Part shown: positions 3,964 to 13,124 of the stretch, piece after piece
Layout: each line of letters begins with the position of its first letter
Position numbering within the stretch: the stretch's first letter is position 1
IMG/VR virus record: IMGVR_UViG_3300032316_000758
Location: 1-24,638 of that record
Reading direction: 5' to 3' (one strand)
Source: a virus
Length of the DNA: 24,638 nt
Notes under the pieces: model-generated
Told to the model about the DNA's origin: nothing
Databases searched by the model: none
Seen by the model: the letters and a program-made list of their open reading frames with translations, nothing else
Made by a program: the position numbers and the translations under genes

Positions 3964-4356
3964 TTAAATGTTTCCTATACCAGTATTCACACTGGCAGCG
4001 GTATTGCTTGACACAACACTGCTAGTACTCTTACCCGCAACACTTGCAGCAATCTGTGCAGCCAATGCTTGGCCTAGATTACCACCAAACTGCTGCACCA
4101 TGGCGGCTTGCTTGTCCATTTCCGTGGTATCAGGATAGAATCCAGTACCTTCATGGTTAGCAACTAGAGGACATGCCTCACCAACATAGCGAGATGTGAA
4201 GAACAACGGGTTGCTCTTATCATCTTCCACAAGGTAACTACCCTGTGCATCGCGATAAGCATCTAATTCAGACGCGTTACCTTTCACGGTGTATACAAAC
4301 ACCAATTTTCCAGTTTGTTTTTTGCGATACTGGCGCGCGAAATTCAATGTAGTCAT
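3964..4356 (-). CDS. Conserved paralogous protein A, 130 residues
   Basis: Paralogue of the product of 4772-5179. Both begin with a beta-like segment ending in a basic (Q)RxYRK motif, then F-VYTV-G-A, then DAYRD/DNYRN, an EDDK-x-PLFFTxRY-GE block, NHxGT-xY--xxEMDKQAA, and a QxGGNLGQA-A-QIA helix near residues 92-107. This copy ends in a Ser/Thr/Ala-rich tail. The conserved layout suggests one compact fold plus a helical tail that may mediate oligomerisation. It resembles small abundant phage DNA-binding or virion-associated proteins in size and basic start, but I do not recognise a family. It has its own upstream region with a promoter-like TACTACTTAT. Confidence 0.8.
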   Translation of the reverse strand: MTTLNFARQYRKKQTGKLVFVYTVKGNASELDAYRDAQGSYLVEDDKSNPLFFTSRYVGEACPLVANHEGTGFYPDTTEMDKQAAMVQQFGGNLGQALAAQIAASVAGKSTSSVVSSNTAASVNTGIGNI

Positions 4357-4771: not shown

Positions 4772-5179
4772 TCAGATGCTGCCCAGTTCCTGAGAACTTG
4801 GCTGCGGCTGAGCCTGTGGTGTGCGTTGCCCTATGCCGGCTGCTTGGGAAGCAATTTGCATAGCAATTGCTTGACCCAAGTTGCCGCCATATTGGGCAAC
4901 AAGCGCTGCTTGCTTATCCATTTCGGAATTATCTACGTAGTAGTTAGTTCCAGAATGGTTAAGCGCTAAAACAGCGCGCTCACCCGCATATCTTGTAGTG
5001 AAGTATAAAGGCTGGCCTTTATCATCTTCACGCAAGAACGCGGAATTGAGGTTACGGTAATTGTCAACAGCGTCAGCTGTGCCAGTTACTGTGTAAACGA
5101 AAGTTACGCGTGCGGGTGCACCAGCAGTTTTTCCCGCCTTGCGGTAAGAACGCTGAAAGTTGATTGTTAAATTTTTCAT
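4772..5179 (-). CDS. Conserved paralogous protein B, 135 residues
   Basis: Paralogue of the protein at 3964-4356, sharing QRxYRKxGK, F-VYTV-G-AD, YRN, EDDKGQPLYFTTRYAGE, NHSGTNYYVDNSEMDKQAALV and YGGNLGQAIAMQIAS blocks, with a Gln/Pro-rich tail (PQAQPQPSSQELGSI). The frame stays open upstream to 5233, but I place the start at 5179, because MKNLTINFQRSYRK aligns with MTTLNFARQYRK of the paralogue and a promoter-like motif lies between. It is flanked by two strong minus-strand terminators, so it is a stand-alone transcription unit, as expected for a product needed in quantity. Function unknown. Confidence 0.85.
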   Translation of the reverse strand: MKNLTINFQRSYRKAGKTAGAPARVTFVYTVTGTADAVDNYRNLNSAFLREDDKGQPLYFTTRYAGERAVLALNHSGTNYYVDNSEMDKQAALVAQYGGNLGQAIAMQIASQAAGIGQRTPQAQPQPSSQELGSI

Positions 5180-5204
5180 AAAATTTGATAATTGATTTTC
5201 AATT

Positions 5205-5217
5205 ATGAGTAGTATTA
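5205..5217 (-). promoter_or_regulatory. TACTACTCAT promoter-like motif upstream of paralogue B
   Basis: On the minus strand this reads taatactactcat, 26 bases from the ATG at 5179. A GCTACGC box lies 10 bases upstream of TACTACT, matching the arrangement at 4423-4450. Confidence 0.4.
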
Positions 5218-5230
5218 TATTATTGCGTAG

Positions 5231-5260
5231 CAAAAAAAAAGAAATCGCCTAAGCGATTTC
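5231..5260 (-). terminator. Intrinsic terminator overlapping a stop codon
   Basis: An 8-bp stem (gaaatcgc 5241-5248 / gcgatttc 5253-5260) has the loop ctaa and, on the minus strand, a run of nine T. The TAG stop of the 64-residue gene (5249-5251) sits in the loop, so translation and termination are physically interlocked. Confidence 0.85.
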
Positions 5261-5996: not shown

Positions 5997-6437
5997 ATGA
6001 CAAAAGAAAAATTAGAAGAGCTGATAGCATCAGGTGCTACTAGAAAATGTAATAAGTGTAATGAAGTAGTACCAGTTACTGAATTTTATATACATAAGGA
6101 TATAAAAAACAATAAGCATTATAGATTCAATTCTCCTTGTAAGTTTTGTGCTAACATTACCAGAAACATAGATTACCATAAAGCATATCAAAGGAAGTTA
6201 AAGTACAATCTAACTACTGAGGAGTATGATGCTAAATTACATTCTCAAGACTATTCTTGCGCTATATGTAATATACACAGAGATGATTATTCTAAAGATT
6301 TTGTAGTAGACCATTGCCATCAAACAGGTAAGGTTCGGGCACTATTGTGCAACAACTGTAATAGTGGATTAGGGTTCTTTAAAGATAGATCAAGCATTAT
6401 GAAAAAAGCTATTGCCTATTTAGATAAGCACAAGTAG
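5997..6437 (+). CDS. Recombination endonuclease VII-like HNH nuclease
   Basis: The C-terminal half carries the endonuclease VII signature: CAIC (88-91), the catalytic DHCH (105-108), then TGKVRALLCNNCN (110-122) with the second zinc Cys pair at 118/121, and a following GLGFFKD. Enzymes of this fold cut branched DNA (T4 gp49) or act as free-standing homing-type nucleases. The N-terminal half adds another four-Cys zinc motif, CNKC (18-21) and CKFC (48-51). This arrangement is common in stand-alone mobile HNH genes and suggests target recognition rather than Holliday-junction resolution alone. It stands alone between two non-coding regions with its own promoter, consistent with a mobile gene. 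Family confidence is high, biological role open. Confidence 0.88.
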   Translation: MTKEKLEELIASGATRKCNKCNEVVPVTEFYIHKDIKNNKHYRFNSPCKFCANITRNIDYHKAYQRKLKYNLTTEEYDAKLHSQDYSCAICNIHRDDYSKDFVVDHCHQTGKVRALLCNNCNSGLGFFKDRSSIMKKAIAYLDKHK

Positions 6438-7275: not shown

Positions 7276-8727
7276 ATGTTAAACAACCTTACAAACTTTT
7301 TTAATCTAATATCTACCAGAAGGGTTAAAATTTCAGTAGATCCAAATGATCTAGTAGTCCTAGGAATATTAGACCCGAGGACTCCTGGAATCTACCAACC
7401 TGCTGCTATTAGAGCATGCAATCTTGGTGGTAGTGACAGTGTTATTATAGCTGGCACAGGAAATGGCTCTAGCTTACGCTGTGGCGCAAGTAATACGGCT
7501 AGTGGATCTTATTCTTTTGCGATTGGAGGTTGCACAACAGCGAGTGGTGCTTTTTCTACCACATCGGGATATTGCACATTAGCAAGTTGCTCTTATTCCA
7601 CCGCATCGGGTCAATATACAATCGCAAATGCATTTCATTCCACCGCATCGGGATATTGCACATTAGCAATAGGAAATTATTCCACCGCATTGGGAAGATG
7701 CACAACCGCAAGTGGTAATTATTCCACCGCATCGGGATATTCTACAATTGCAAGTGCAAATTATGCAACCGCATCGGGAAGATGCACAACTGCAAGTGGA
7801 TATTGTTACGCAAGTGTTCACAATGGACTTTTTAATCACATCGGAAACGCTACTTGTTCAAATTATGCAAACTACGGAGTAGTTCTCAACGGAAACGGAA
7901 ACAACACTACGGGAGGAACTTGGTCGGGAACATATTGGTCAGTCGCTCCAACACCCGCAAATTCGGGATGTTATTCTTTCATTGGTAACGGATTTCAGAA
8001 TAGCGCAAGTGGTTGTCAAGCAAGTGTTTTGAATGGTTGTTGTAATATTGCAAATAGTAGTTATTCCACCGCATCGGGTTATTACTCAATCGCAAGTGAT
8101 ACCTATGCCACCGCATCGGGTCAATGTACAATGGCAAGTGCATTGCATTCTACCGCATTGGGAGATAACACAATTGCAAGTAGTAAATATTCCACTGCAT
8201 CGGGAAGATGCACTAACTCAAGTGGATTTTTTTCCACCGCATCGGGAGTTGGTACAATCGCAAGTAATGATTTTTCAAACGCATCGGGAAATTACTCAAC
8301 TGCAAGTGGAAATTATTCCACCGCATTGGGATATTGCACAACCGCAAGTGGTGCTTTTTCAATCGCATCGGGTTATTGCACAACTGCAAGTGGAGGGTAT
8401 TCCACAGCATCGGGATGTTACACAACCGCGAGTGGTCTTTATTCCACCGCTTCGGGATATTACACAACAGCAATTGGTGATTATTCCACAGCATCGGGTT
8501 ATTGCTCAACCGCAAGTGGAGCATATAGTTTAGTTCATGGTGCGTCAAGTTGTGACAACGGAAACAATCTAGCTTATGTATTTGGAAGTAACATTGTAGC
8601 AAACAGAGCATGTGCTACATTTGTAAACAACTTAAACATTATGAATATTCCTACATCTAGTGCAGGACTCCCTACAAAATCAGTTTGGTTTGATAATACA
8701 ACATGTACTTTAAAAATGGTACCATAA
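7276..8727 (+). CDS. YadA-like beta-roll phage fibre protein 1 (type 1 repeats)
   Basis: Domains in order: an N-terminal anchor (1-45, VDPNDLVVLG...DPR) shared with the products at 11946, 13146 and 13702; a cap, AGTGNGSSLRCG (59-70); about eight 14-residue beta-roll repeats (72-178) of the form NYSTASGYCTTASG; an inserted GNG/TWSGT module (181-258, ending FIGNGFQN); about twelve more repeats (262-418); and a C-terminal PTSSAGLP...VW...LKMV tail (459-483). The repeat is that of trimeric YadA/Hia head domains, a left-handed beta roll. About 23 Cys occur, many at the same position of the repeat, which is unusual for this fold. Likely a virion fibre binding the host surface. The repeats use GC-richer codons (acc gca tcg gg) than the ends of the gene. 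Confidence 0.8.
   Translation: MLNNLTNFFNLISTRRVKISVDPNDLVVLGILDPRTPGIYQPAAIRACNLGGSDSVIIAGTGNGSSLRCGASNTASGSYSFAIGGCTTASGAFSTTSGYCTLASCSYSTASGQYTIANAFHSTASGYCTLAIGNYSTALGRCTTASGNYSTASGYSTIASANYATASGRCTTASGYCYASVHNGLFNHIGNATCSNYANYGVVLNGNGNNTTGGTWSGTYWSVAPTPANSGCYSFIGNGFQNSASGCQASVLNGCCNIANSSYSTASGYYSIASDTYATASGQCTMASALHSTALGDNTIASSKYSTASGRCTNSSGFFSTASGVGTIASNDFSNASGNYSTASGNYSTALGYCTTASGAFSIASGYCTTASGGYSTASGCYTTASGLYSTASGYYTTAIGDYSTASGYCSTASGAYSLVHGASSCDNGNNLAYVFGSNIVANRACATFVNNLNIMNIPTSSAGLPTKSVWFDNTTCTLKMVP
7591..8520 (+). repeat. 42-base tandem repeats coding for the beta roll
   Basis: The core ccaccgcatcggg recurs at exact 42-base steps (for example 7598 and 7640), with two arrays split by the module at about 7815-8050. 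Copies are nearly identical at the DNA level, so expansion or contraction by slippage or recombination in steps of 14 residues is possible without a frameshift. Confidence 0.8.
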
Positions 8728-8775: not shown

Positions 8776-9108
8776 ATGGCAACTTGGTCAACATTACACA
8801 TCTTTGGGTACGGAGAGACTCAATTAATTGGAACAGATTCTAACAAGAAAGTTCCTTCTACAGCTTTAACTACGTTAACACTTGTAGTAAACAATGTATA
8901 TTCTCTTAAACCAGAAGAGAATACGGCAGATACACAGTATCATGCAATCAATATCTTCAATGATATGTTTGCGGATTGGCAGCCAAAAGGACCTGAAGCA
9001 AAAGGTTGGAGAACTGAGTATGCAAAACTAGATGCACAAGCTATTGCAGCTTTAGTTGCTGAGATTGAAGCATATGTAGAGCCAGTAGCTCCAGAAGTTG
9101 TTGCATAA
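8776..9108 (+). CDS. Hypothetical protein between fibre and glycosylation genes, 110 residues
   Basis: The N-terminal half is beta-rich (TLHIFGYGETQLIG, then TLTLVVNNVYSLKP). The C-terminal half is helical and acidic, with an Ala-rich segment (KLDAQAIAALVAEIEAYV) and a Pro/Val tail. There is no signal peptide or Cys. It follows fibre 1 by 48 bases in the same direction, so it may be a small virion protein or fibre-assembly factor, but I recognise no family. The last codons overlap the -33 element of the next promoter. Confidence 0.7.
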   Translation: MATWSTLHIFGYGETQLIGTDSNKKVPSTALTTLTLVVNNVYSLKPEENTADTQYHAINIFNDMFADWQPKGPEAKGWRTEYAKLDAQAIAALVAEIEAYVEPVAPEVVA

Positions 9109-9130
9109 TAAAAAAATTGTATTATATTTG
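9101..9130 (+). promoter_or_regulatory. Promoter of the sugar/sulfate operon
   Basis: TTG (9101-9103), 19 bases, then TATATTTG (9123-9130), an exact TAnnTTTG box, 25 bases before the ATG at 9156. The next obvious promoter is at 11901, so the five genes probably form one transcript. Confidence 0.65.
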
Positions 9131-9155: not shown

Positions 9156-10025
9156 ATGAATATCATTTTTCAAATTAGCGGTGGTATGGGCAAATGCATT
9201 ATGGCCACTGCAGTATGTACAGCAATCAAAAAAAAGTATCCTGAGTCTAACTTAATAGTTATATCAGGTTATCCAGACGTATTCTTAAATAATAAAGAAG
9301 TCCATAGAGCCTACGTGTTCAATGGACTTTCTTATTTCTATGATGAGTACATTGATGGTAAAGAGTTCTTAGTATTTGCTAATGACCCTTACTTAGAAAC
9401 AGGGCACATTAGACAAGATGAGCACCTGTTAAAAACTTGGTGTGAGATGTTTGGTCTTGAGTATGCTGGAGAAAAGCCAGTAATTAATCTTACAACAAGA
9501 GAGGTACAATACTTCCAAAATAAGTTTGCATCAGATAAACCAATTATGTTGTTACAAACAAATGGTGGAGCGCAAACAGAGCACAAATATTCTTGGGCAC
9601 GAGATCTTCCTTCTGCAGCGGTAGTAAAAGTTATTGAACACTTTAAAAATGACTATACTATTGCACACATTAGAAGAGAAGATCAACTATCTTACAATGA
9701 TACAATTCCTGTAACTGACACATTTAGAGCACTTTGTATATTACTTGCAATGAGTTCTAAAAGATTGTTGATTGATAGTTTTGCACAACATGCTTCCGCA
9801 GCCTTAGAATTACCATCAACCGTATGTTGGGTATCTAATAAACCAGAAGTATTTGGTTATGAACTACATGATAATATACTAGCAAATGAATTTACAACTA
9901 AGCCAGAATTAAGAAACGCTTACTTATCTAAATTCAATATTGCAGGAGATCTAATAGAGTTTCCTTATAACTCAGAAGATGAGATCTTCAATGTAGAAGC
10001 AATTATAGAGTCATTAAGCAAATAA
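9156..10025 (+). CDS. GT9-like glycosyltransferase
   Basis: The protein has the features of the heptosyltransferase-like GT-B family (GT9). The N-terminus MNIIFQISGGMGKCIMATA has the Gly-rich acceptor-side loop, followed by TAIKKKYPESNLIVISGYP. The second half holds a central LLQTNGGA (about 130-138), then a donor-side segment with LLIDSFAQHASAAL, PSTVCWVSNKPEVFGYELHDNI and a short acidic tail. These enzymes move a sugar from a nucleotide donor to a glycan or protein in the cytoplasm. At 289 residues it is shorter than LPS heptosyltransferases (about 320-350). It leads the operon with the sulfotransferase 3 bases downstream, which suggests that the sugar placed here is then sulfated. Donor and acceptor cannot be read from the sequence. 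Confidence 0.72.
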   Translation: MNIIFQISGGMGKCIMATAVCTAIKKKYPESNLIVISGYPDVFLNNKEVHRAYVFNGLSYFYDEYIDGKEFLVFANDPYLETGHIRQDEHLLKTWCEMFGLEYAGEKPVINLTTREVQYFQNKFASDKPIMLLQTNGGAQTEHKYSWARDLPSAAVVKVIEHFKNDYTIAHIRREDQLSYNDTIPVTDTFRALCILLAMSSKRLLIDSFAQHASAALELPSTVCWVSNKPEVFGYELHDNILANEFTTKPELRNAYLSKFNIAGDLIEFPYNSEDEIFNVEAIIESLSK

Positions 10026-10028
10026 CCA

Positions 10029-10847
10029 ATGGAAAAATTATTCTTTCAGTCCTCTATGCCGAGGTCTGGTAGCACATTGTTACAAAATATCTTTGCTCAA
10101 AATCCAGATATGTACGCTACACCTACATCAGGTGTATTAGAATTAGTATTTGCTGCAAGAGGAAACTATACCAATTCTTCTGAATTCTTAGCACAAGACT
10201 CTGAACTAATGAAAAAAGGATTCTTAGAGTTTTGTCAAAAAGGAATGATTGGGTACTATGAAGGTATCACAGATAAAAAGTATGTAGTGGATAAATCCAG
10301 AGGTTGGGGTATTCACTATGACTTTTTAAATACAATCTTTCCAGAACCTAAAGTAGTTTGCATGGTTAGAAATCTTAAAGATGTATTTGCATCTATGGAG
10401 AAGAACTATAGAAAGAATCCAGAGAAACAAGATCCTATACTAGATTGGTCTAAAATGCAAGGTACATCAGTTCCTAAGAGAGTAGATATTTGGGCTCAGA
10501 ATCCTCCAATAGGCATGGCACTAGAAAGACTCTCAGAGATTTTTAGAATGGGTCTAGACAAGAAGATACACTTTGTTAAGTTTGAAGACTTATGCTTATA
10601 CCCAGAAGAAACCATGAGAGGTGTCTATAGATACCTTGGTATCCCAGAATATGAACATGACTTTGATAACATAGAACAAGTTACTAAAGAAGATGATTCA
10701 GTATACGGTGCATTTGGAGACCATGTTATTAGACAGAAACTAGAAGTAGTTCCGTCTAAAGCTAAAGATATCTTAGGCAAAGATGTTGTAGATTGGATCT
10801 GGAATAACTATGATTGGTATAATAAAGCTTTTAACTACAAGCCATGA
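10029..10847 (+). CDS. PAPS-dependent sulfotransferase
   Basis: At the N-terminus, FQSSMPRSGSTLLQNIF has the 5'-phosphosulfate-binding loop PRSGST at residues 11-16. The 3'-phosphate-binding segment is KVVCMVRNLKDVFASMEK (about 108-125), with Arg114 and Ser122 in the expected positions. A late HFVKFEDLCLYPEETM block (171-186) and YRYLGIP match the usual end of the fold. It would transfer sulfate from PAPS to a hydroxyl or amine, probably on a carbohydrate or tyrosine. It sits 3 bases after the glycosyltransferase and overlaps the APS kinase start by ATGA, so donor synthesis and use are coupled. 272 residues is normal for the family. The acceptor is unknown. Confidence 0.85.
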   Translation: MEKLFFQSSMPRSGSTLLQNIFAQNPDMYATPTSGVLELVFAARGNYTNSSEFLAQDSELMKKGFLEFCQKGMIGYYEGITDKKYVVDKSRGWGIHYDFLNTIFPEPKVVCMVRNLKDVFASMEKNYRKNPEKQDPILDWSKMQGTSVPKRVDIWAQNPPIGMALERLSEIFRMGLDKKIHFVKFEDLCLYPEETMRGVYRYLGIPEYEHDFDNIEQVTKEDDSVYGAFGDHVIRQKLEVVPSKAKDILGKDVVDWIWNNYDWYNKAFNYKP

Positions 10848-11302
10848 TAATAGTATTATTTGGTCAGCCCCATTCGGGTAAGACAACACTAGCAGAAAAG
10901 CTTGCAGAAAAACTTGCTAACTCTGAGATAATTGATGGAGATAGATTTAGAGAAGCATTTAAGAACACAGACTATTCTAAAGAAGGAAGAATTAAGAATC
11001 TTACCAAAGCCTGTGATATAGGTTATTACATGCATAAGAACTTAATCAAGTCTAATGTTATTTATTCTATGGTGTTCCCCTACAAAGAAGTACGCGACTA
11101 TCTTAGAGAGCTGCATCCTGAGGCTCATTTCTTCTATTTAACGTATGAAAAACCAAGAGGAAGGGAAGAATACCATGTAAAAGATTTTGAATCCCCTACA
11201 GATTCCGAGGGTGTAGAAATATTAAACACAGATAATAACTCAATTGATGCTTGCATTGATTATATAACAGATGCATTATGGATAAAGAATGGGGAAAATT
11301 AG
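10844..11302 (+). CDS. cysC: Adenylylsulfate (APS) kinase
   Basis: Catalyses APS + ATP to PAPS + ADP. The P-loop GQPHSGKTT lies at residues 7-15 and the DGDRFR substrate motif at 31-36, followed by YSKEGRIKN (44-52), which parallels the canonical FS--DR--N. FPYKEVRDYLREL corresponds to the SPY---R---R motif, and KDFESP with a later LNTD corresponds to the mobile lid and C-terminal segments. At 152 residues it is shorter than bacterial CysC (about 175-200), with a shortened lid, but no essential motif is missing. It overlaps the sulfotransferase start-to-stop (ATGA), and the downstream gene by 25 bases, so it most likely supplies PAPS to its neighbour. Confidence 0.85.
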   Translation: MIIVLFGQPHSGKTTLAEKLAEKLANSEIIDGDRFREAFKNTDYSKEGRIKNLTKACDIGYYMHKNLIKSNVIYSMVFPYKEVRDYLRELHPEAHFFYLTYEKPRGREEYHVKDFESPTDSEGVEILNTDNNSIDACIDYITDALWIKNGEN

Positions 11303-11679
11303 TACACGTAGGATCATCATTACCAGCTAAACCAGAGCAATATGCTTTGTTTGTAGGAAGATGGCAACCATTACACGATGGTCACAAAGCTTTATTTCAA
11401 AGAGCATTACGTGAAGGAAAAAAAGTTTGGATTGCTATTAGAGATATTGCACCAGATGAGAAGAATCCTTGGACAGCAGAAGAAGTACTAAGTAACATAA
11501 CTAATGAATACAAAGAACTTTGTGCTCAAGGTATAGTTAGAATTAGTATTATCCCTGACATATGTTCAATTGAATTTGGTAGGGGTGTTGGCTATGATAT
11601 CATTGAGCACATACCCCCCGCGCAGGTAGCAGAAATTTCAGCAACAAAAATTAGAGAGCAACTAAAAAATGGAAAATAA
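11278..11679 (+). CDS. Small HxGH nucleotidyltransferase (cytidylyltransferase-like)
   Basis: The motif FVGRWQPLHDGHKALFQRAL (25-44) holds the T/HxGH nucleotide-binding site (HDGH 33-36), and EISATKIREQL (119-129) is the ISxTxxR site that closes on the triphosphate. KNPWTAEEV in between fits the same fold, used by NadM-type and pantetheine-phosphate adenylyltransferases. These transfer a nucleotidyl group from NTP with release of PPi. ATP sulfurylase belongs to the same superfamily and makes APS, the substrate of the gene upstream, so a minimal APS- or nucleotide-sugar-forming enzyme is attractive. The motif details are closer to NadM, so the substrate is open. Overlaps both neighbours. Confidence 0.75.
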   Translation: MDKEWGKLVHVGSSLPAKPEQYALFVGRWQPLHDGHKALFQRALREGKKVWIAIRDIAPDEKNPWTAEEVLSNITNEYKELCAQGIVRISIIPDICSIEFGRGVGYDIIEHIPPAQVAEISATKIREQLKNGK

Positions 11680-11881
11680 TCTAATAAGGCATATTCTTAA
11701 GACAGTATCCTATAGAATTTTAGGCACCTTAACTACGGTAACTGTAGCATATTCTCTAGGTGCATCTTTAAGTATGGCATCATTACTTGGCGTAGGAGAG
11801 CTGGTTATCAAACCTGTCATATACTTCTTCCATGAAAGACTGTGGTATAAGCATATAAGAATAGGTAAAAAAGCTAATTAA
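11669..11881 (+). CDS. DUF2061 small membrane protein
   Basis: 70 residues with the family pattern: an N-terminal HILKTVSYRILGTL, a hydrophobic central part (about 21-50, with VTVAYSLGASLSMASLLGVGELV), then the signature K-V-YFFHERLWY at 48-59. Two short membrane helices with a His/Glu/Arg cluster near the second are expected. The biochemical role is unknown. I recall that in bacteria DUF2061 often lies next to or is fused with APS kinase and sulfate-assimilation genes, which fits its place here, 11 bases into the end of the nucleotidyltransferase. It may help sulfate entry or hold the complex at the membrane. Both are inference. Confidence 0.8.
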   Translation: MENNLIRHILKTVSYRILGTLTTVTVAYSLGASLSMASLLGVGELVIKPVIYFFHERLWYKHIRIGKKAN

Positions 11882-11945: not shown

Positions 11946-13124
11946 ATGGATATTCTAAATTTTATCTCCTGGGTTAAAAGCGGCAGAGTTGTTACTTCTG
12001 TTGACCCAACTCAAACACTATTACCTGTTGGACTTAAAGATCCAAGAAGGGATGATGGTTACCTTGCTGGTGCTATTACTGCTCAAGATTTTATTGATCA
12101 AGTAGTTACTTGTATTCCAACACCTCCTGCAGGTATTATGGTAGTAGGAGCAGGTACTGGTTCTACAGTAAGATGTGGTCTATCCAATACGGCTAGTGGT
12201 GCATGTTCAACAGTTAGTGGAGGTATAACTAATATCACAAATAGTACTTATTCAGTAATTGCTGGTGGTAAATTAAATTTAATGTGTATTACAACAGGTT
12301 CAGATGGGCCAGGAAACGTAATTGCTGGTGGATTTTGTAATACAATTAGTGGGTATGGTATTAGTTATTCATCTATTCTAGGTGGTTCTACAAATACAAT
12401 AAGTGCTGCTTACTCTGCTGGTGCAATAATAGCAGGTGGTAAATGCAATACTAATAGTGGAGGATATTCAACTATTAGTGGAGGATATAGTAACACAATA
12501 ACTTTATTTAAATCTAAGGCTACAATAGGTGGAGGTGGTACTATTACAGTAAGTAATACATATGGAACTGTTAGCGGAGGTAACAGTAATACAGCAAGTG
12601 GGGTTGCTTCTACAATTGGGGGTGGTACAAGCAATATTGCAAGTGGTTGTTATTCTACACTAAGCGGAGGATATCTTAATACAGCAAGTGGAGTTTGTTC
12701 AACGGTATCTGGAGGTCAATCTAATCTAGCAAATTCGTGTGTTGCAACAATTGGCGGCGGTCGGCAAAATACTGCAAGTGGTTGTCTTTCAACAGTAGCC
12801 GGAGGATACAATAATACAGCAAGTGCTTCATATACAACTATTAGTGGAGGTTCTAGTAATAAGGCATGTTCTCTTTGGTCAATAGTTAGTGGAGGTAGAT
12901 GTAATACAGCATCTGGAAATTATTCAGTAATTCTAGGAGGTAGATGTAATATAACTTCTAATGATTGTGCCTTTATTGTTGGTGCTAATATTACTTCGGA
13001 TAGAGCATGTACTACTTTTGTTAATGCTCTTTCTATGAAAACTGCACCAACATCTTCAGCTGGCTTACCATCAGGAACTGTATGGGTAGATACTACAGCA
13101 GGCAATGTTTTAAAAATGGTATAA
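11946..13124 (+). CDS. YadA-like beta-roll phage fibre protein 2 (type 2 repeats)
   Basis: The N-terminal anchor (1-55: MDILNFISWVK, VDPTQ, LKDPRR, ITAQDFI) matches those at 7276, 13146 and 13702. A cap, GAGTGSTVRCGLSNTASG, begins at about residue 73. Then come imperfect repeats of the type ISGGxxNTASGxxSTISGG to about residue 340, glycine-richer than fibre 1 but with the same beta-roll logic. A C-terminal GANITSDRACTTFVNALS and PTSSAGLPSGTVW...LKMV tail matches fibres 1 and 4. The repeats again carry many Cys. Likely a trimeric virion fibre. It follows the sugar/sulfate operon directly, with its own promoter. Confidence 0.78.
   Translation: MDILNFISWVKSGRVVTSVDPTQTLLPVGLKDPRRDDGYLAGAITAQDFIDQVVTCIPTPPAGIMVVGAGTGSTVRCGLSNTASGACSTVSGGITNITNSTYSVIAGGKLNLMCITTGSDGPGNVIAGGFCNTISGYGISYSSILGGSTNTISAAYSAGAIIAGGKCNTNSGGYSTISGGYSNTITLFKSKATIGGGGTITVSNTYGTVSGGNSNTASGVASTIGGGTSNIASGCYSTLSGGYLNTASGVCSTVSGGQSNLANSCVATIGGGRQNTASGCLSTVAGGYNNTASASYTTISGGSSNKACSLWSIVSGGRCNTASGNYSVILGGRCNITSNDCAFIVGANITSDRACTTFVNALSMKTAPTSSAGLPSGTVWVDTTAGNVLKMV

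Follow-up and report, generated by a model that had tools for sequence, protein, structure and literature searches.

Gene content of the locus

We analyzed a 24.6-kb virus record, referred to here as the window, in which five open reading frames (ORFs) running in the same direction form an operon set among fibre-like genes. The features of this region are as follows.

7276..8727, plus strand: YadA-head repeat fibre protein, candidate acceptor (Pfam YadA_head, 1.7e-19)
8776..9108, plus strand: small conserved protein of 110 amino acids (aa) directly upstream of the operon; the same cluster lies beside 15 of 59 cassettes
9123..9130, plus strand: possible Bacteroidota-type -7 element, TATATTTG, proposed from sequence only and not statistically set apart from background
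9156..10025, plus strand: GT9-fold glycosyltransferase, 289 aa (AlphaFold fold), beside the sulfotransferase in most related phages
10029..10847, plus strand: predicted PAPS-dependent sulfotransferase, 272 aa (Pfam Sulfotransfer_3, 1.6e-18)
10844..11302, plus strand: short APS kinase homologue, 152 aa (Pfam APS_kinase, 6.8e-11)
11278..11679, plus strand: HxGH nucleotidyltransferase (NT), 133 aa, predicted non-orthologous ATP sulfurylase (from motifs, APS kinase fusions, and CysDN replacement)
11669..11881, plus strand: DUF2061 small membrane protein, 70 aa (Pfam, 3.3e-17)
11946..13124, plus strand: UspA1-repeat fibre protein, candidate acceptor (Pfam UspA1_rep, 3.6e-12)

An earlier note on this DNA had described five co-directional genes with overlaps or tiny gaps, flanked on both sides by fibre genes, and this layout was borne out (gaps of +3, -4, -25, and -11 bases). 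Its gene identities also held, with Pfam naming four of the genes and the fold naming the GT9 enzyme. The single promoter that it proposed is at most hinted at: an TATATTTG motif does begin at position 9123, but there are 17 motifs of this type on the plus strand of the window, generic promoter matches in the window occur at the level of shuffled sequence, and promoter and terminator scans of the window gave background signal only.

The terminase large subunit resembles its counterparts in crAss-like phages and in phages of Flavobacterium psychrophilum (approximately 25 to 28% identity among the matches listed) and the window also encodes PhoH; a Bacteroidota host is therefore likely. Elsewhere in the window, an Endonuclease VII homologue (5997-6437; PHROG, 1.1e-35) lies near the fibre genes, and two similar small proteins of unassigned family are encoded in tandem on the minus strand (3964-4356 and 4772-5233).

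Conservation of the cassette in phages

Viral contigs were scanned three times, using the sulfotransferase, NT, and the kinase as queries, which yielded 215 loci (here and in the order counts, duplicates of one contig are included). The five genes recur across these loci in several orders: GT9-sulfotransferase-kinase-NT-DUF2061 in 74 loci, sulfotransferase-kinase-NT-DUF2061-GT9 in 23, and sulfotransferase-GT9-kinase-NT-DUF2061 in 16, with kinase-NT-DUF2061 alone in 22 and other orders as well. Once duplicates were removed, there were 164 distinct core sets, or about 160 distinct phage loci, carried by a large group of phages known mostly from metagenomes. Because pooled co-occurrence is biased by the seeds, we also counted each seed separately, using solely loci with flanking DNA. 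NT seeds (n = 43) were accompanied by the kinase in all 43 cases, DUF2061 in 41, the sulfotransferase in 32, and GT9 in 31; kinase seeds (n = 36) by the sulfotransferase in 36, GT9 in 34, DUF2061 in 32, and NT in 30; and sulfotransferase seeds (n = 40) by GT9 in 29, the kinase in 26, and NT in 23. Most neighboring core genes overlap or are nearly contiguous: of 480 gaps, 381 were ≤30 bases. The earlier note had made its reading depend on the five genes staying together in other phages; they do so in shuffled order, from which we conclude that they act as a unit. The same pattern led us to reject the idea that they are stray moron genes.

Where the usual sulfotransferase is missing, as in locus L106, a member of another sulfotransferase family (PF03567, Sulfotransfer_2, 1.7e-12) is encoded directly before the kinase. 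A small HAD-type hydrolase, which could act on a 3'-phosphonucleotide or a sugar phosphate, is often found between the kinase and NT (for example, L116 5882-6223; approximately 36 loci).

The sulfotransferase and the GT9 glycosyltransferase

The PRSGST motif that the earlier note had picked out in the sulfotransferase is part of a loop that is invariant across the phage family (PR.GST; P11, R12, G14, S15, and T16), as is a pair formed by R114 and S122, eight residues apart. The 5'-phosphosulfate loop and the 3'-phosphate Arg/Ser pair are both present, which points to PAPS-dependent sulfate transfer. The nearest solved structures, at low similarity, are protein-tyrosine sulfotransferases (TPST1). 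Sulfotransferases from cyanophages and marine single-cell viruses are Sulfotransfer_3 homologues, 25 to 28% identical to the phage enzyme.

The first ORF has no Pfam match and its sequence profile found no match in the PDB; a structure search with its AlphaFold model (pLDDT 94) did find relatives. The best was the GT9 structure 3tov (Z 22.8; 3.3 Å over 265 residues), followed by the heptosyltransferases WaaF (Z 21.2) and TibC (Z 19.6). By this model, the first gene has the GT-B architecture of a GT9 heptosyltransferase. In two phage loci (L017 and L018), genes for an HldE-like kinase and adenylyltransferase, which score below NCBIfam cut-offs, are found within the operon, suggesting that the GT9 donor is probably an ADP-heptose-like sugar. 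The insertion in L017 (8604-11184, between the kinase and NT) encodes a Cupin, a HAD protein, the HldE-like adenylyltransferase and kinase, and an epimerase and is possibly a phage-borne nucleotide-heptose pathway.

TibC heptosylates repeat adhesins (PMC4358343). The phage enzyme shares its GT9 fold and adjoins YadA-like fibres, but the alignment of its model to TibC starts at TibC residue 97, so that the N-terminal part of TibC is missing.

The APS kinase homologue and DUF2061

The kinase motifs of the earlier note (GQPHSGKTT and DGDRFR) proved to be intact, and residues G12, K13, D31, G32, D33, R36, R49, N52, P79, and R84 are invariant. They make up a P-loop, DGD..R, S...R..N, and P...R, columns that are common to canonical enzymes in the alignment. 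The best PDB match is an archaeal-type APS kinase (3.4e-8). The lid segment (KGLYKKAR / FTGIDxPYE) that is present in the canonical kinases of L053, L246, and L217 is absent from the short phage and Marinimicrobia forms, and “APS kinase homologue” is therefore the safe name for a protein that groups with short PRK05541-like proteins. In three phage loci, a full canonical APS kinase, fused to NT, replaces the short form; the kinase of the L053 fusion scores 255.9 bits against TIGR00455 (cut-off, 138.7). As judged from these residues and relatives, the short kinase would phosphorylate APS to PAPS.

The last gene scores 63.1 bits against DUF2061 (PF09834; cut-off, 23.1). In Bacteroidota, a DUF2061 gene separates CysQ from APS kinase in L307 and L317 and immediately precedes APS kinase in L316, which indicates that DUF2061 belongs to sulfate activation or sulfation; the literature on DUF2061 was uninformative as to its role. 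A conserved domain of approximately 75 aa that has no Pfam match is joined to the N terminus of DUF2061 in about 53 phage loci (L067 9903-10346), and this domain also occurs as a stand-alone protein beside the cassette.

NT is outside the known sulfurylase families

The main point missed by the earlier note is the role of NT, which we predict to be a small, unrecognized ATP sulfurylase. Pfam assigns NT to CTP_transf_like (1.4e-6), with a weak, subthreshold ATP-sulfurylase match (0.029), and the family has invariant motifs (GR.Q..H..H, R55, N63 P64, GRxxGY, and ISxT.IR). It falls outside both known types of sulfurylase: against the Sat-type family PF01747 it scores 14.2 bits (cut-off, 24.3), and its HxGH fold is not that of CysDN, in which a PAPS-reductase-like CysD pairs with the GTPase CysN. 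The closest sequence relatives of NT are NadM-type NMN adenylyltransferases (1e-9), so the sulfurylase claim concerns function, not family. Nor is it a recognizable NadM, as one bacterial NT scores 41.0 versus a required 181.2 bits for TIGR01527 and 49.4 versus 127 for PRK01153, and the window NT scores 26.6 and 32.1 bits, respectively. NT and NadM have the HxGH and ISxTxIR motifs and the fold in common; they differ in that NT family proteins are approximately 110 to 150 aa long, carry IRDV at the aligned GS.Q region, and have a sulfation genomic context. In a fold search, sulfurylases, NMN adenylyltransferases, and pantetheine adenylyltransferases scored alike, and the fold match is therefore evidence for neither a sulfurylase nor an NMN adenylyltransferase.

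NT takes the place of known sulfurylases in some bacteria

When bacterial genomes were scanned once with an NT profile, relatives turned up in Bacteroidota, Marinimicrobia, Dadabacteria, SAR11, and Nomurabacteria. Among 80 fetched bacterial NT regions, 35 contain a kinase homologue, mostly adjacent or fused and including canonical APS kinases, whereas in the other 45, mostly from SAR11 and Dadabacteria, no APS kinase was found within the region fetched. NT is fused to a canonical APS kinase both in a phage (L053) and in Nomurabacteria (L231).

Known sulfurylases are largely missing where NT accompanies a kinase: among 26 such genomes, Sat was found in 2 and CysD in 1. In Flavobacteriales, NT is present in 8 of 296 genomes, with APS kinase adjacent in all 8. 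CysD or Sat occurs in none of these 8 genomes versus 97 of the 99 APS kinase genomes that lack NT (Fisher P = 1.4e-10), and in a Marinimicrobia sample (149 genomes of the phylum of one Marinimicrobia genome), a known sulfurylase occurs in 1 of 9 NT genomes versus 73 of 81 others with APS kinase (P = 1.4e-6). Both P values are weakened by the phylogenetic nonindependence of the NT genomes and by the possible incompleteness of the assemblies, most of which come from single cells or metagenomes. The Marinimicrobia exceptions are one genome with both NT and Sat and eight APS kinase genomes with neither NT nor a known sulfurylase.

The replacement can also be seen within one conserved locus. L315 encodes proteins that we take to be GcvH and TonB, then APS kinase-CysD-CysN, with a divergent CysQ, a flippase, and three sulfotransferases. 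L308 to L310 retain the presumed GcvH and TonB, APS kinase, CysQ, flippase, and sulfotransferases, with NT in the CysD-CysN position. Given this syntenic replacement and the genome distribution, NT is predicted to be an ATP sulfurylase, the simplest reading being that it makes APS from ATP and sulfate.

In SAR11, a diverged NT stands alone beside a permease-like gene or is fused to a different P-loop kinase (L276 9959-10339 and L261 9533-10336). Some Bacteroidota have a second cytidylyltransferase-like gene between APS kinase and NT (L305 4887-5285 and L306 14542-14940).

A probable phage sulfation cassette

In our view, the operon probably constitutes a sulfation cassette of the phage. NT, predicted to be an ATP sulfurylase of a new, non-orthologous type, would convert ATP and sulfate to APS; the kinase would convert APS to PAPS; and the sulfotransferase would move sulfate from PAPS onto an acceptor. 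GT9, probably with an ADP-heptose-like donor, would build or start the glycan to be sulfated, and DUF2061, a small membrane protein, may be a partner of the genes for sulfate activation. From the observed gene content, the conservation of the cassette, protein families and folds, and the displacement of CysDN, we infer the enzyme activities and the acceptor. The earlier note had proposed a self-contained unit that adds a sugar, makes the sulfate donor, and adds sulfate; this is supported more fully than it knew, since NT would supply the first step, from sulfate to APS, as bacterial distribution and synteny suggest.

The likeliest acceptor would be a glycan carried by the neighboring fibre proteins, which are rich in Ser and Gly, or by the host surface, and either is plausible. 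Of the 59 cassettes with enough flanking sequence, 41 have a fibre-like protein encoded within 4 kb. The association of the gene set with fibres, which the earlier note proposed to look for, is thus common, but it is not universal, about one third of the cassettes having none; some, such as L106, are found in polysaccharide gene clusters instead. The 97 neighboring gene clusters include glycosyltransferases, FkbM methyltransferases, sugar epimerases, collagen repeats, and lectin-like domains. Since fibres are not constant neighbors and some cassettes sit in polysaccharide clusters, a sulfated virion glycan is something that we infer. The fibre-like neighbors, HldE-like genes, and likeness to TibC make it a good hypothesis that the fibre carries a sulfated glycan, perhaps one with heptose, the alternative being a host-surface or other acceptor. 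The boldest form of the proposal, a third type of ATP sulfurylase besides CysDN and Sat that is widespread in phages and marine bacteria, together with a mobile phage cassette that sulfates the phage's own fibre sugars, is put forward tentatively, at less than even confidence.

A sulfotransferase whose nearest solved relatives act on protein tyrosine might modify tyrosine or a small molecule, leaving the cassette real but its acceptor other than a glycan. We regard this as rather unlikely, since GT9 accompanies the sulfotransferase in most loci (34 of 36 with kinase seeds), glycan genes, the HldE-like ones among them, are found close by, and a Sulfotransfer_2 enzyme can substitute. The donor itself could be a PAPS-like compound that lacks sulfate, as CysC-like kinases with other substrates exist: that of Campylobacter jejuni acts on cytidine diphosphoramidate, and the phage kinase belongs to the short PRK05541-like group without the canonical lid. 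Nonetheless, L053 has a canonical APS kinase in its place, as do bacterial loci that also encode CysQ and sulfotransferases, and such cassettes are not restricted to a single Pfam family of sulfotransferases, which makes a nonsulfate donor very unlikely.

We assign similarly little probability to a NadR-like NAD-salvage pair (ribosylnicotinamide kinase and NMN adenylyltransferase) unrelated to sulfate, with the sulfotransferase drawing on host PAPS. The closest characterized relatives of NT by sequence are indeed NMN adenylyltransferases, and some annotated phage homologues carry that label, but NT falls far below NadM cut-offs, its partners in bacteria and in fusions are canonical APS kinases, and in sulfation loci that also encode CysQ and sulfotransferases it stands in for CysDN. 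More improbable still is that the genes serve assimilatory sulfate reduction or the sulfur metabolism of the host, the role published for phage cysC, the transcription of which was reported in lake samples (PMC10914622). APS kinase is one step of that pathway; the cassette, however, ends in a sulfotransferase and a glycosyltransferase rather than a PAPS reductase, its neighbors are glycan and fibre genes, and PF01507 does not appear in a list of the 25 most frequent Pfam families of the 97 neighboring gene clusters.

Relation to known systems

The sulfation cassette proposed here parallels bacterial operons in which CysC-CysDN (or Sat), CysQ, and sulfotransferases likewise couple sulfate activation to sulfotransferases and which, in L307, L316, and L317, also include DUF2061. 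Unlike them, the phage operon has a 133-aa HxGH protein in place of CysDN or Sat and no CysQ. The APS kinase-NT fusions of L053 and L231 show the same pairing as PAPS synthase, an APS kinase-ATP sulfurylase fusion, although the NT domain is a small NadM/PPAT-like HxGH domain and not a PF01747 sulfurylase. In a literature search that covered few subscription journals, we found no description of the cassette or of an HxGH, non-PF01747 ATP sulfurylase; the new content is this predicted enzyme.

The cassette offers a concrete role for phage sulfotransferases, the function of which was called unclear (PMC10580990); the described enzymes of cyanophages and OM43 phages are reported without PAPS-making genes, unlike those of the phage cassette. 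The cassette offers the same for phage cysC, which virus ecology has counted as assimilatory sulfate reduction (PMC10914622). The predicted sulfurylase may explain sulfate activation in some marine bacteria that have APS kinase without a known sulfurylase. If the acceptor is the fibre, sulfation would be a new chemical decoration of the virion and could change how receptors are bound or how the phage is recognized.
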